Shown: positions 15,535 through 19,865 of the stretch, piece after piece | How the letters are laid out: each line of letters starts with the position of its first letter | Position numbering within the stretch: the stretch's first letter is position 1 | Origin: Sphingomonas sp. S2-65 | GTDB taxonomy: Bacteria; Pseudomonadota; Alphaproteobacteria; Sphingomonadales; Sphingomonadaceae | Length of the DNA: 64,000 nucleotides | Assembly: GCF_021513175.1 (NCBI RefSeq) | Contig: NZ_CP090953.1 | Location: 3,592,501 to 3,656,500 of the forward strand | Direction of reading: 5' to 3' | Made by a program: the position numbers and the translations under genes | The notes under the pieces: generated by a model | Seen by the model: only the letters and a program-made list of their open reading frames with translations | Told to the model about the DNA's origin: nothing | The model's database searches: none

Positions 15535-15846
15535 TTGTTCCCGGACAATCGATGAAACGAATCGTGGGTGCGGCCAACCGAGCCGGCGCTGCGATTCACA
15601 TGGGTAAAGTTTTCGTATAGACTTCGGCTCAGCTTTGGGTTGGATGTGCCGTTTCGGCGCCTATCCTGGTTAACCGGGGTGCGGTACCTGCGTTTTGCAG
15701 GGCGCTAAGCTGTTGGTTTATAGCCATTCCTCAACCCGGTAGCGTTAACTTTCTTTCATGGTAAAGGCGCTTTTCATCACGCTTCGCGCGCTTCATAGTC
15801 GTGCTTGCAAGGCCGATGTCGAGGCCGGAACGAGGACCAACAGGCG
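15535..15846. other. 312-bp intergenic region without a recognised gene
   Basis: Lies between ilvA and the leucyltransferase gene. A weak hairpin ATTGT-TCCCGG-ACAAT lies just after the ilvA stop. AT-richer patches and GTTAAC half-sites near 15675 and 15744 suggest promoters, but no full CtrA box or consensus -35/-10 pair stands out. No credible small CDS or RNA gene seen. Confidence 0.5.
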
Positions 15847-16629
15847 GTGACTGCACTTTCCCGTTTCCCCCGATTTTTCGTGACCAGCCCGTCGCCATGC
15901 CCCTATCTTCCGGGTCGGCAGGAGCGGAAGATCTTCACCGAACTGACCGGCCAGCATGCCGGCGAGCTCAACGATGCGCTCGGACGGATCGGCTTTCGCC
16001 GCAGCCAGTCGGTCGCCTATCGCCCGAGCTGCGCCAACTGCACCGCCTGCGTCTCGGTCCGCGTGGTGGCGAACGAGTTCCAGCCGAATGCGACCCAGCG
16101 CAAGCTGTTGAAGCGCTATGGCGACCTGGAAGTCACTCCGTGCAAGCCCTGGGCGACCGAGGAACAATATGCGTTGCTGCACGACTATCTGCATGCGCGG
16201 CACCCGGGCGGCGGCATGGCGGCGATGGACGAGAACGACTATGCCGACATGGTCGAGCAGTCGCCGGTCAGCTCGTTCGTGATCGAGTATCGCGAGCCTT
16301 CGGTCGGTGGCGTTCCCGGGCGGCTGGTGGGTGCGTGCATCACCGATCGCCAGGCGGATGGCCTGTCGATGATCTACAGCTTCTTCGTCGCGGACGACGT
16401 GCGCTCGAGCATGGGCAATTACATCATCCTGGACCACATCCTGCGCGCCCGCAGCGCCGGGCTGCCTTATGTGTATCTCGGCTATTGGGTGAAGGGGTCG
16501 GAGCGGATGGCGTACAAGACGCGCTATCGGCCGATCGAAGTGCTCGGCCCCAATGGCTGGTCGCTGCTGACCGACGAGGACGAGACGTTCGCGATGCCGC
16601 TGCCGTCCAAGGTGCGCGCGCTGGCCTGA
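15847..16629 (+). CDS. bpt: Aspartate/glutamate leucyltransferase
   Basis: 260-residue leucyl/arginyl-tRNA-protein transferase (Bpt/Ate family) that adds Leu to N-terminal Asp or Glu, tagging proteins for ClpS/ClpAP. N-terminal Cys cluster typical of the family ([29 protein letters not shown]) and C-terminal GNAT-like core ([37 protein letters not shown]). The GTG at 15847 is used; the longer frame from 15805 adds an atypical basic leader. Confidence 0.93.
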
Positions 16630-16637
16630 ACCCTGCG

Positions 16638-17447
16638 CTAGCCGTCGGTGCCGAGCTGCTCCACGTGCAGGTCGACGTCCATCTGTTCCTGGCCATGGCC
16701 GATGCGCGTGCCGGCAACCGCCGCCGCGCCGGCGGCGTCCAGGCCGATGGCGACGCGGACATAGCGCTCGTCGGGTGAGACCCCGGCGACCGGGTCGAAC
16801 CCGACCCAGCCGATCCCCTCGACATAGCCTTCGGCCCAGGCATGGGGTGCGCAATGCGCGACACTGTCGCTGCGGTAGCCCGAGACATAGCGCGCGGGAA
16901 TATCCAGGCTGCGCGCGGCGGCGATGAACATCTGGGCCACGTCGCGCGACGTCGCGGATCCGGCGGCGAACGCCTCGGCAGCGGGGGCGCCGGTGTCGGG
17001 CGCGTCGGGGGCGCAGGGGAAGCGTTGATGCAGCGCGCGGTTGAGGCGGTGGAGCATGTCCAGCCGGTCGTTCGCGCCCGACGCGCTCTCGGCGGCGAAA
17101 TCGGGAAGTCCGTCTCCCGCCGCCGTGCGCGGCGTCTCGCGCAGATAGACCAGCGGGGGCAGGGGCTCCGCCGAACCCCGGATGACCCCGTGGGTGTCGG
17201 TGGTCAGGATCTCGCCGGTGACATGGATGTCGAGCGCCTGGATCGGGCCATCGGCGTAGAGCATGGTGACGGCGTTGCCGAAGCCATCGACCGCGTCGCG
17301 CAGCCGGGCGTCGCAATCGACGCTGACCATCCAGCTCACCACCGTCTGGTCCTGGGTATCTCCAGGCGTCAGGCGCAGCAGCTGGACGATGCGGTCCTGC
17401 GGCCTGGAGAAGCGGTAGCGGGTGTGGTGATCGACCGCGATACGCAT
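16638..17447 (-). CDS. Transglutaminase-like protein with Ser at the catalytic Cys position
   Basis: 269 residues. N-terminal bacterial transglutaminase-like domain (RIAVDHHTRYRFSRPQDRIVQ) followed by the protease/transglutaminase core: residues ~160-225 with DIPARYVSGY, the His motif HAWAEGYV and the Asp in VGFDPVAG. Homologues usually read GxCQDxAH where this protein has TSRDVAQ; Ser167 (codon 16947-16949, TCG) stands in the place of the nucleophilic Cys. The ATG overlaps the TGA of the alpha-E gene (TGATG), so translation is coupled. Third gene of the ATP-grasp/alpha-E/transglutaminase cluster; either inactive, a Ser-type enzyme, or a binding subunit. Confidence 0.85.
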   Translation of the reverse strand: MRIAVDHHTRYRFSRPQDRIVQLLRLTPGDTQDQTVVSWMVSVDCDARLRDAVDGFGNAVTMLYADGPIQALDIHVTGEILTTDTHGVIRGSAEPLPPLVYLRETPRTAAGDGLPDFAAESASGANDRLDMLHRLNRALHQRFPCAPDAPDTGAPAAEAFAAGSATSRDVAQMFIAAARSLDIPARYVSGYRSDSVAHCAPHAWAEGYVEGIGWVGFDPVAGVSPDERYVRVAIGLDAAGAAAVAGTRIGHGQEQMDVDLHVEQLGTDG

Positions 17448-18388
17448 CAGATGAACCGGAACTGGCGGCTGATCGCGGCGTCGAGCATCGCATTCTCCCG
17501 GATGAACGCATTCAGATGTTCGTGCAGGCCGCTGACGATCACATCGGAGGTGCGGGTTTTCTGGACGCGGGCCAGGCGCGCCCGCGCCATGCGGTCGGCC
17601 TCGCCCTGAAGGCCGGTGCGCTTGGCGAGCTGGCTGAGGATCCCGACGGCCTCGTCGGCGCAGGCGGCCAGGCTGCGCGGCAGCTCGATCCGGCTGATCA
17701 GCAGGTCGATCACCTTGGCGGGCTGCAGGCCTTCCTTGTAGAGCCAGCGATAGGCGTTCACCGCCGACACGGTCTGGAGGATGGTGGTCCACTGGTCGCG
17801 GTCGACCACGCCGCCGACCGCCTCGCCGGCGGGCAGCAGCAGATGGTATTTGACGTCGACCAGCCGCGCGGTGTTGTCGGCGCGCTCCACCGCGGCGCCG
17901 AGCTGGATGAGCCAAGTCGCCTCGTTGCGCATCATGCGATGGATCGAGCCTTCGAAGCCGCGCGTCTCGCCCTTGACCTGTTCGACCAGGTTCAGCGTTT
18001 CGGTGGCGCTTCGGGTGTTCGCGCGGGTCTGGAACATCAGCCAGGCGCGGTTGATCGCGGTCCAGGCGTCGCGGGTCAGCGCGGTGCGCACGGCGCGGGC
18101 ATTGTTGCGCGCCCGCTCCAGGCAGCGGATGATCGAGCCTGGGTTGGCGGCGTCGAGCGTCAGGAAGTGCGCGACATCCGCCTGGGTGAGGCTGCGGCCG
18201 GTCGCGGCGAAGGCGTCGTCGGTGTAGCTGACGGCGAGGGCGCTTTGCCAAGCGGCTTCGCCTGCCGGGCGGGCGGAAAGCGCGTCGAGGCGGATCGTCG
18301 CTTCGACCAGCCGGGCGATGAAATCGGCACGCTCGACATAGCGGCCCAGCCAGTAGAGCGCGGCGGCGGTGCGGGAGAGCATCAGCAT
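17447..18388 (-). CDS. Alpha-E domain protein
   Basis: 313-residue all-helical protein of the alpha-E (DUF403) family, starting MLMLSRTAAALYWLGRYVERAD, with a second copy-like motif (GAAVERADNTARLVDVKYH). Function unknown; the family is known for its constant association with circularly permuted ATP-grasp and transglutaminase-like proteins, suggested in comparative studies to make or remodel peptides. The ATG at 18388 lies inside the end of the upstream gene's spacing (7 bp), and its stop overlaps the next start. Confidence 0.9.
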   Translation of the reverse strand: MLMLSRTAAALYWLGRYVERADFIARLVEATIRLDALSARPAGEAAWQSALAVSYTDDAFAATGRSLTQADVAHFLTLDAANPGSIIRCLERARNNARAVRTALTRDAWTAINRAWLMFQTRANTRSATETLNLVEQVKGETRGFEGSIHRMMRNEATWLIQLGAAVERADNTARLVDVKYHLLLPAGEAVGGVVDRDQWTTILQTVSAVNAYRWLYKEGLQPAKVIDLLISRIELPRSLAACADEAVGILSQLAKRTGLQGEADRMARARLARVQKTRTSDVIVSGLHEHLNAFIRENAMLDAAISRQFRFI

Positions 18389-18395
18389 GACGGGC

Positions 18396-19865
18396 TCACC
18401 GGCTCTGCCGCTGCGACTGGCTTTGGCCGGGAGGCGCATCCTCCAGCAGCACGAAGCTGTCCTTGGTGCCGCCGCCCTGGCTGGAGTTCACCACCAGCGA
18501 GCCTTCTCGCAGCGCCACGCGCGTGAGGCCGCCGGGGACGACGCGCACGCCGTCGCTGCCGGTGAGCACGAAGGGGCGGAAGTCGACATGACGGGGGGCG
18601 AGGCCCTGTTCGACCAGCGTCGGCACGGTGGACAGCGCCAAGGTGGGCTGAGCGATGTAGCGGTGTGGCTCGGCGATCAGGGCTGCGCGGAAGTCGGCGA
18701 TTTCCTGGCGGCTGGCGGTGGGGCCGACCAGCATGCCGTATCCGCCCGAGCCGTCGACGAGCTTCACCACCAGTTCGGGCAGATGGTCGAGGACGTATTT
18801 GAGCGCCTGGGGCTCGCGGCACCGCCAGGTTTCGACATTGGGCAGCTTGGCGTCCTGCCCGGTGTAGAAGCGGACGATCTCGGGCATGTAGCTATAGATT
18901 GCCTTGTCGTCGGCGATGCCGTTGCCCGGCGCGTTGATCAGCGCGACGTTGCCGGCGCGATAGGCGGCGATCAGCCCGGGAACGCCGAGCATCGAATCGG
19001 CGCGGAAGGTGAGCGGATCGAGATAGTCGTCGTCGATCCGGCGGTAGATGACGTCCACCCGCACGCGGCCGGCGATGGTCTGCACCCAGACGATGTCGTC
19101 GTCGACCACCAGATCGGCCGCCTCGACCAGTTCGACGCCCATCGAATCGGCGAGGAAGCTGTGTTCGTAATAGGCCGAGTTGAAGTGGCCCGGGGTCAGC
19201 ACGACGCAGACCGGGTCGGCGTTGTTGCCGGGCGCGACCGATCGCATCGTTTCCAGCAGCCGGTCGGGATAGCTGTCGACCGGGGCGACGCGGAACTCGC
19301 GGAACAGCTCGGGGCACAGGCGCAGCATCGCCTCGCGATTTTCGAGCATGTAGGACACGCCGGATGGGGTGCGGGCATTGTCCTCCAGCACGAAGAATTC
19401 ATCCGCCCCGGTGCGCACCAGATCGATGCCGCAGATATGCGCCCAGATGCCGTGCGGCGGGCGGATGCCGGCGACTTCGGGACGGAACTGGTCGTTGCGG
19501 TAGATGAGTTCGGGCGGGATCAGCCCTTCGGCGAGGATGCGGCGCTCACCGTAGATATCCTCGAGAAAGGCGTTGATCGCCTGCACCCGCTGCATCAGCC
19601 CTTCGCAGAGCCTGGACCATTCGTGGTGCAGGAAGATGCGCGGGACGATGTCGAACGGGATGATCCGTTCGGCGGCGTCGTTGTCGCCATAGACCGCGAA
19701 GGTGATGCCGAGCTGGCGAAAGGCGGCTTCGGCCGATTGCTGGCGGCGGTGCAGCTCCTCGGCCGCCGTGCCGGCTACCCAGCGCGACAGCGCCTGGAAT
19801 TCGGGGCGCGGCGACTCCGGTCCGCCATGCCCCCAGATTTCGTCGAACGCCCCGCCTGTTCCCAT
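18396..19865 (-). CDS. Circularly permuted type-2 ATP-grasp protein
   Basis: 489 residues of the DUF404/DUF407 family. Visible family blocks: PFDIVPRIFLHHEWSRLCEGL, AFLEDIYGERRI, ICGIDLVRTGADEFFVLEDN, GVSYMLENREAM, VVLTPGHFNSAYYEHSFLA, LVEAADLVVDDD and LVKLVDGSGGYGMLVGP. An ATP-dependent ligase (carboxylate-amine) is expected; substrate unknown. First gene of the three-gene cluster, transcribed divergently from nothing nearby (the dsbD gene ends 69 bp upstream on the same strand). Confidence 0.92.
   Translation of the reverse strand: MGTGGAFDEIWGHGGPESPRPEFQALSRWVAGTAAEELHRRQQSAEAAFRQLGITFAVYGDNDAAERIIPFDIVPRIFLHHEWSRLCEGLMQRVQAINAFLEDIYGERRILAEGLIPPELIYRNDQFRPEVAGIRPPHGIWAHICGIDLVRTGADEFFVLEDNARTPSGVSYMLENREAMLRLCPELFREFRVAPVDSYPDRLLETMRSVAPGNNADPVCVVLTPGHFNSAYYEHSFLADSMGVELVEAADLVVDDDIVWVQTIAGRVRVDVIYRRIDDDYLDPLTFRADSMLGVPGLIAAYRAGNVALINAPGNGIADDKAIYSYMPEIVRFYTGQDAKLPNVETWRCREPQALKYVLDHLPELVVKLVDGSGGYGMLVGPTASRQEIADFRAALIAEPHRYIAQPTLALSTVPTLVEQGLAPRHVDFRPFVLTGSDGVRVVPGGLTRVALREGSLVVNSSQGGGTKDSFVLLEDAPPGQSQSQRQSR

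Follow-up and report, generated by a model that had tools for sequence, protein, structure and literature searches.

A Transglutaminase-Like Protein without Its Catalytic Cysteine, Probably a Pseudoenzyme, in an Alpha-E/ATP-Grasp Cassette of Sphingomonas

Introduction

A gene cassette encoding an Alpha-E protein, a circularly permuted (CP) ATP-grasp ligase and a transglutaminase-like protein has been described in bacteria, in some of them together with Anbu (PMC5666114, PMC6376114). The roles suggested for it, in which the ATP-grasp protein ligates peptides alongside a peptidase or transferase partner, are presented there as unproven proposals (PMC5666114, PMC6376114), and the hypotheses published for the Anbu operon are described as lacking experimental confirmation (PMC6376114). 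In Burkholderia cenocepacia H111, a cluster of domain of unknown function (DUF) genes DUF404/407 and DUF403 with a transglutaminase gene is among the targets of NtrC and is tied to nitrogen limitation (PMC5491218), and in marine metagenomes the cassette domains occur in clusters with urea metabolism (PMC3597751). Here we describe a cassette of this kind, cassette A, in a stretch of 64,000 nucleotides from Sphingomonas sp. S2-65 (NZ_CP090953.1, positions 3,592,501 to 3,656,500; the window), whose transglutaminase-like protein, P0001, has serine at residue 167, where its relatives have the catalytic cysteine (Cys). The ATP-grasp, Alpha-E and transglutaminase genes are adjacent on one strand at 16638-19865, with the start of P0001 meeting the end of Alpha-E at 17447. 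This is the order of the published cassette, from which the locus differs in lacking an adjacent Anbu and a nucleophile, and in that the genome holds a second cassette, cassette B. The sole Proteasome-family match in the genome (HslV or Anbu) lies near 1.63 Mb, far from the cassettes at 3.61 and 1.98 Mb.

We put the probability at roughly 70% that P0001 is a pseudo-transglutaminase, a third cassette-A protein that would have lost its Cys once and been kept for a non-catalytic job.

The Nucleophile Position of P0001

P0001 contains both domains of its family, with Pfam matches to Transglut_core (1.4e-20) and Bact_transglu_N (5.4e-18) at 74.1 and 65.9 bits against curated cut-offs of 23 and 27; no NCBIfam model matched. 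Together with a confident AlphaFold2 model (predicted local distance difference test, pLDDT, 91.7; predicted template modelling score, pTM, 0.90), these matches agree with an earlier sequence-only reading that the fold is kept. Residue 167 is Ser and opens helix 167-180, and on the model this helix start is the place of the nucleophile in the transglutaminase fold. In addition, Ser167 aligns without gaps with the Cys at position 181 of the chain sequence of 3isr, the solved structure of a transglutaminase-like putative cysteine protease from Cytophaga hutchinsonii. The replacement of the catalytic Cys claimed by the sequence-only reading is thereby borne out, as is the retention of the other two triad residues, His202 in PHAWAE and Asp218 in GFDP, both of which lie on core strands of the model. 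P0001 therefore has the His and Asp of a cysteine peptidase family member but no Cys where the core helix begins, and none of its cysteines (45, 145 and 199) aligns with the nucleophile place. Of the best 120 of 1771 matches, a set that contains the query, 118 have Ser, one has Ala and one has Pro, which rules out sequencing error or chance at this codon; many of the close homologues that have names are Sphingomonas. Neither finding that could have undone the claim, an erroneous Ser or a different Cys aligned at the nucleophile place, was thus made. With a catalytic residue lost, the reading frame and predicted fold kept, and purifying selection acting on the gene (see below), P0001 shows these features of a pseudoenzyme.

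A Single Loss of Cysteine Followed by Drift

We compared 227 cassette-A proteins, leaving out matchless loci, the duplicate L002, L003, L054 and short rows; for Sphingomonas, sequence was taken from 170 of the 281 matching genomes, hand-picked from down the ranking. Cys is present in 74 of these proteins and absent from 153, all of the latter from Sphingomonas, and it is present in all 57 from other genera of the order. Setting aside two frame-shifted copies (L192, L193) leaves 151 Cys-less orthologues, in which the site holds Pro (59), Ser (54), Ala (27), Gly (5), Val (2), Arg (2), Thr (1) or Ile (1); in 8 of the 151, at least 10 residues directly before the site are missing and the aligned residue is less sure. 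The nearest relative among whole genomes, L055, at 82% identity, has Ala. The GVCQ motif that is fixed in Cys relatives is gone from the Cys-less ones, where Gln168 has mostly become Arg (Table 1). The sequence-only reading had asked whether Ser167 is conserved in a subclade: it is at close range, where 37 of the 39 sequences that are at least 60% identical have Ser and two have Ala, and the wider clade does not keep it. Nearly all Ser codons (53 of 54) are TCN, a single first-base step from those of Pro (CCN) and Ala (GCN), which is the pattern that drift would give. Cys45, within the N-terminal domain, occurs in 143 of the 151 Cys-less orthologues versus about 7% of Cys relatives. Cys168 is seen in 14 of the 151 (L014, L100, L104-L107, L109, L173, L177, L178, L180, L181, L185 and L188; e.g. 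TPCDLAHIFC), and many of these orthologues also carry a second Cys beside the His (HCWAE).

A FastTree phylogeny of 135 genomes, built from the Alpha-E and ATP-grasp partners only, calls for a single switch between Cys and non-Cys and for at least 27 changes of residue 167 among the Cys-less rows. An IQ-TREE analysis of 54 rows recovers the Cys-less group (26 rows) at 99% in the Shimodaira-Hasegawa-like approximate likelihood ratio test (SH-aLRT), and the Cys-bearing Sphingomonas L174 comes out as sister to it; long branches drew a warning from the program. As reconstructed from these trees, Cys was lost once, in an ancestor of most of the Sphingomonas sampled, and the site then drifted. On the partner tree, eight Cys-bearing Sphingomonas cassettes (L204-L211) fall with those of another genus (g20), which suggests horizontal replacement of the cassette.

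Among pairs matched for divergence, defined as those with ATP-grasp identity of 0.80-0.85 (2345 Cys-less and 161 Cys pairs), identity of the transglutaminase core is 0.48 without Cys versus 0.66 with it, and that of loop 146-172 is 0.37 versus 0.64; the N-terminal domain stands at 0.62 versus 0.64. Column identities over the whole clade (0.63 versus 0.42) had at first hinted that the N-terminal domain is better conserved once Cys is gone, a reading abandoned because identities are equal at matched divergence. The median ratio of nonsynonymous to synonymous substitution rates (dN/dS) of the transglutaminase, taken over 60 randomly drawn pairs in each group, is 0.34 in the Cys-less group (maximum 0.59) and 0.15 in the Cys relatives. 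Where a column is fixed to 97% or more in Cys relatives, it is kept at 90% or more in 165 of 171 cases in ATP-grasp, 39 of 43 in Alpha-E and 21 of 35 in the transglutaminase. Selection on the Cys-less transglutaminase is relaxed but purifying.

A Second Cassette Accompanies the Loss

The second Alpha-E of the genome is part of a frame of 855 residues next to a transglutaminase that has Cys (L003), and the two form cassette B. We used the cassette-B-type transglutaminase as a proxy for this cassette, its fused ATP-grasp/Alpha-E partner having been seen only in the window's own genome and four class-level loss genomes. Cys was present in 41 of 41 cassette-B transglutaminase loci read (40 genomes, the own genome twice), and a match occurs in 264 of 295 Sphingomonas genomes (expectation value, E, up to 1e-40), the 31 genomes without one having been read off directly in 20 cases and by difference in 11. 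Across the 170 sampled Sphingomonas genomes, cassette B accompanies every Cys-less cassette A (153/153) and is absent wherever Cys is present (17/17); one genome beyond the 170 (G268), with Cys and without B, fits the same rule.

Losses were also found elsewhere in Alphaproteobacteria. Leaving aside G000 and G005, a class-level sample covered 48 of 54 matching genomes, with G641 in addition. Four of its 48 cassette-A-like loci, from four different family groups, lack Cys and have Tyr (L279), Pro (L298), Ser (L300) or Ala (L301) instead, and all four genomes retain the cassette A partners along with a cassette-B transglutaminase carrying GVCQD. Cassette-B matches were found in 4 of 4 Cys-less versus 7 of 44 Cys genomes (Fisher p 0.0017, uncorrected for relatedness). 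For these counts G639 was taken as lacking B, its weak match being its own cassette-A gene, and L303 (G517; 33% identical, with GACRD), which may not be cassette A, was counted as having both Cys and B. A congener of L279, G641, keeps Cys, so the loss in L279 looks recent; losses that consist of a single change may be a base error in one assembly. A second sample comprised the best 80 of 586 confirmed relatives, of which 78 have Cys and two have Gly, namely those of Methylobacterium aquaticum (L348) and M. ajmalii (L385). These two were counted as one loss lineage, and both genomes have a cassette-B match. Altogether, six loss lineages, Sphingomonas and five in other Alphaproteobacteria, have cassette B in 6 of 6, with its Cys read in 5 of 6, all but Methylobacterium.

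Copies That Have Gone Further

In 14 Sphingomonas genomes the cassette-A transglutaminase gave no match. Four (G125, G280, G294 and G399) have lost the gene from beside its partners, as taken up below, and all four have a cassette-B match. The G440 locus lies near a contig end, where presence of the transglutaminase cannot be judged, and the remaining nine, of which three are less than 90% complete, gave no match to the cassette-A Alpha-E at 1e-20.

A Proposed Non-Catalytic Role and Its Alternatives

As a pseudo-transglutaminase, P0001 would carry out no covalent catalysis, and its site would have drifted among residues tolerated at the helix start (Ser, Pro, Ala, Gly, Thr). Among the options raised by the sequence-only reading, that of a pseudoenzyme, in the sense of a non-catalytic protein, is the one that drift among the 151 Cys-less orthologues supports at the level of sequence. 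The job for which the protein is kept would most likely be the binding of ATP-grasp/Alpha-E, or of their product, for which it would use its N-terminal domain together with the emptied cleft. The retained His and Asp may be structural. The chemical step would then be supplied by the cassette-B transglutaminase, or be no longer needed on the cassette A product. A more tentative extension, which we hold to be possible but rather less probable than its converse, is that the two cassettes form one pathway, with the cassette-B transglutaminase acting in trans on what both ligases make and so, repeatedly, freeing the cassette-A transglutaminase for binding or, with its ligase and Alpha-E kept, for loss; each cassette would then need at least one Cys-bearing cassette transglutaminase in the genome.

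Several observations weigh against this account. The link between Cys loss and cassette B within Sphingomonas is one evolutionary event, and it is therefore the independent losses that matter. Two Cys-less genomes (G442 and G455) have no cassette-B match, in assemblies 78% and 84% complete. In the best-80 sample, B was sought in 50 genomes and matched in 36, or 33 once G776, G786 and G790, where the match was the genome's own cassette-A gene, were removed; it is present in 31 of the 48 Cys genomes so screened, and being that common there, the sample adds little to the link. The dN/dS of the partners is also raised in the Cys-less clade (Alpha-E 0.175 versus 0.104, ATP-grasp 0.153 versus 0.074; 10 and 22 pairs), so the rise is only in part peculiar to the transglutaminase. 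The gene is frame-shifted in two genomes (L192, L193), at least 10 residues before the site are missing in eight, and four complete genomes (G125, G280, G294, G399) keep Alpha-E and ATP-grasp with no transglutaminase within 1.5 kb downstream. The protein is thus dispensable in some species, where a binding role is not essential, and this complete loss shows that the proposed non-catalytic job would be useful rather than indispensable.

The main rival is slow decay: with cassette B present, the cassette-A transglutaminase would have become superfluous, and its gene would now be disappearing, persisting only through the short time elapsed and weak selection. The graded series from replaced Cys through deleted loop (8) and shifted frame (2) to a missing gene with partners kept (4) is what decay would leave behind, as is the approximate doubling of transglutaminase dN/dS. 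However, 151 of the 153 sampled species have no frameshift, at ATP-grasp identities down to 75-80%, dN/dS at 0.34 is far below 1, the N-terminal domain holds its matched identity, and His202 and Asp218 are kept almost throughout (Table 1), so that we consider decay unlikely. Much less probable still is that the His, Asp and cleft remain catalytic without residue 167, for instance by metal- or water-based hydrolysis, or because Cys45 or Cys168 stands in for it. The near invariance of His202 and Asp218 despite a relaxed core, the enrichment of Cys45 and the appearance of Cys168 fit such chemistry, but Cys45 is missing from 8 of the 151, Cys168 is restricted to 14, too few for a shifted catalytic Cys, and His and Asp sit on core strands where they may be structural; the other nucleophile that the sequence-only reading had allowed for was not found among the 151 orthologues. 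Least probable, and by our estimate very nearly negligible, is the Ser hydrolase it had also envisaged, a serine version of the transglutaminase fold in the window's subclade: the prevalence of Ser among the closest sequences and the retained His and Asp favour it, but L055 has Ala, same-operon orthologues of sister species carry any of Pro, Ala, Gly, Val, Thr and Ile or are missing the loop before the site, the TCN codons lie one step from those of Pro and Ala, core evolution has sped up, and a nucleophile would not wander as this site has since its single loss of Cys.

Gene Neighbourhood

The features of the window are collected in Table 1, with the loci that keep the partners without a transglutaminase. 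A tRNA-protein transferase gene, convergent with cassette A, is a frequent neighbour of Cys-less cassettes and among Cys-type cassettes was seen beside L015 only, a comparison in which flank lengths differ; a functional tie between the transferase and the cassette is only a lead from gene neighbourhood.

Table 1. Features of cassette A in the window, and loci elsewhere that have its partners alone.
Feature	Position	Strand	Remark
Cassette-A pseudo-transglutaminase P0001 (probable), 269 amino acids, Bact_transglu_N + Transglut_core	16638..17447	minus	no catalytic Cys
Ser167 codon TCG	16947..16949	minus	site of the ancestral catalytic Cys; opens helix 167-180
Arg168 codon	16944..16946	minus	Arg in 125/151 Cys-less orthologues; Gln in 74/74 Cys ones
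His202 codon	16842..16844	minus	kept in 150/151 Cys-less orthologues
Asp218 codon	16794..16796	minus	kept in 151/151 Cys-less orthologues
N-terminal beta domain, residues 1-80	17208..17447	minus	equal identity with and without Cys at matched divergence
Alpha-E protein (PF04168)	17447..18439	minus	cassette partner
Circularly permuted ATP-grasp amidoligase (CP_ATPgrasp; PF14403/PF04174)	18396..19865	minus	cassette partner
tRNA-protein transferase (ATE_N/ATE_C)	15805..16629	plus	convergent with cassette A
L433 (G399)			cassette A partners, no transglutaminase
L434 (G125)			cassette A partners, no transglutaminase
L435 (G280)			cassette A partners, no transglutaminase
L436 (G294)			cassette A partners, no transglutaminase

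Comparison with Known Systems

In many species the ligase/Alpha-E pair has been parted in nature from transglutaminase chemistry, which suggests a function for the pair that does not require such chemistry of its own; this also points to the second cassette as its partner and opens a testable route to the pathway. It also offers a bacterial example of repeated enzyme death, apparently permitted by redundancy, within one operon type. The Burkholderia cenocepacia H111 cluster brings the same protein families together as cassette A, in another bacterium, and also includes a large transglutaminase-like protein (PMC5491218). Large transglutaminase-like frames likewise lie beside cassette B in two loss genomes (L418, 4573-7998, 1142 amino acids; L422, 2-2941, 980 amino acids). 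Among the fold matches of P0001 are protein 4.2 and Rad4, the latter as the Foldseek match 2qsg (Rad4/XPC; E 7.7e-3). Erythrocyte protein 4.2 is a structural relative of transglutaminases that has no activity and serves in the membrane skeleton, a eukaryotic protein distant from P0001. The transglutaminase-like domain of Rad4/XPC also has a non-catalytic role and so resembles what is proposed for P0001, a transglutaminase fold without catalysis, but it belongs to a DNA-repair protein and is a weak match. Our literature search, which covered titles and abstracts of open-licence papers, returned no report of a Cys-less bacterial cassette transglutaminase. Non-catalytic transglutaminase folds were thus known already, and what appears to be new, in that it did not come up in these searches, is a recurrent one within this bacterial cassette, tied to a second cassette in the same genome.
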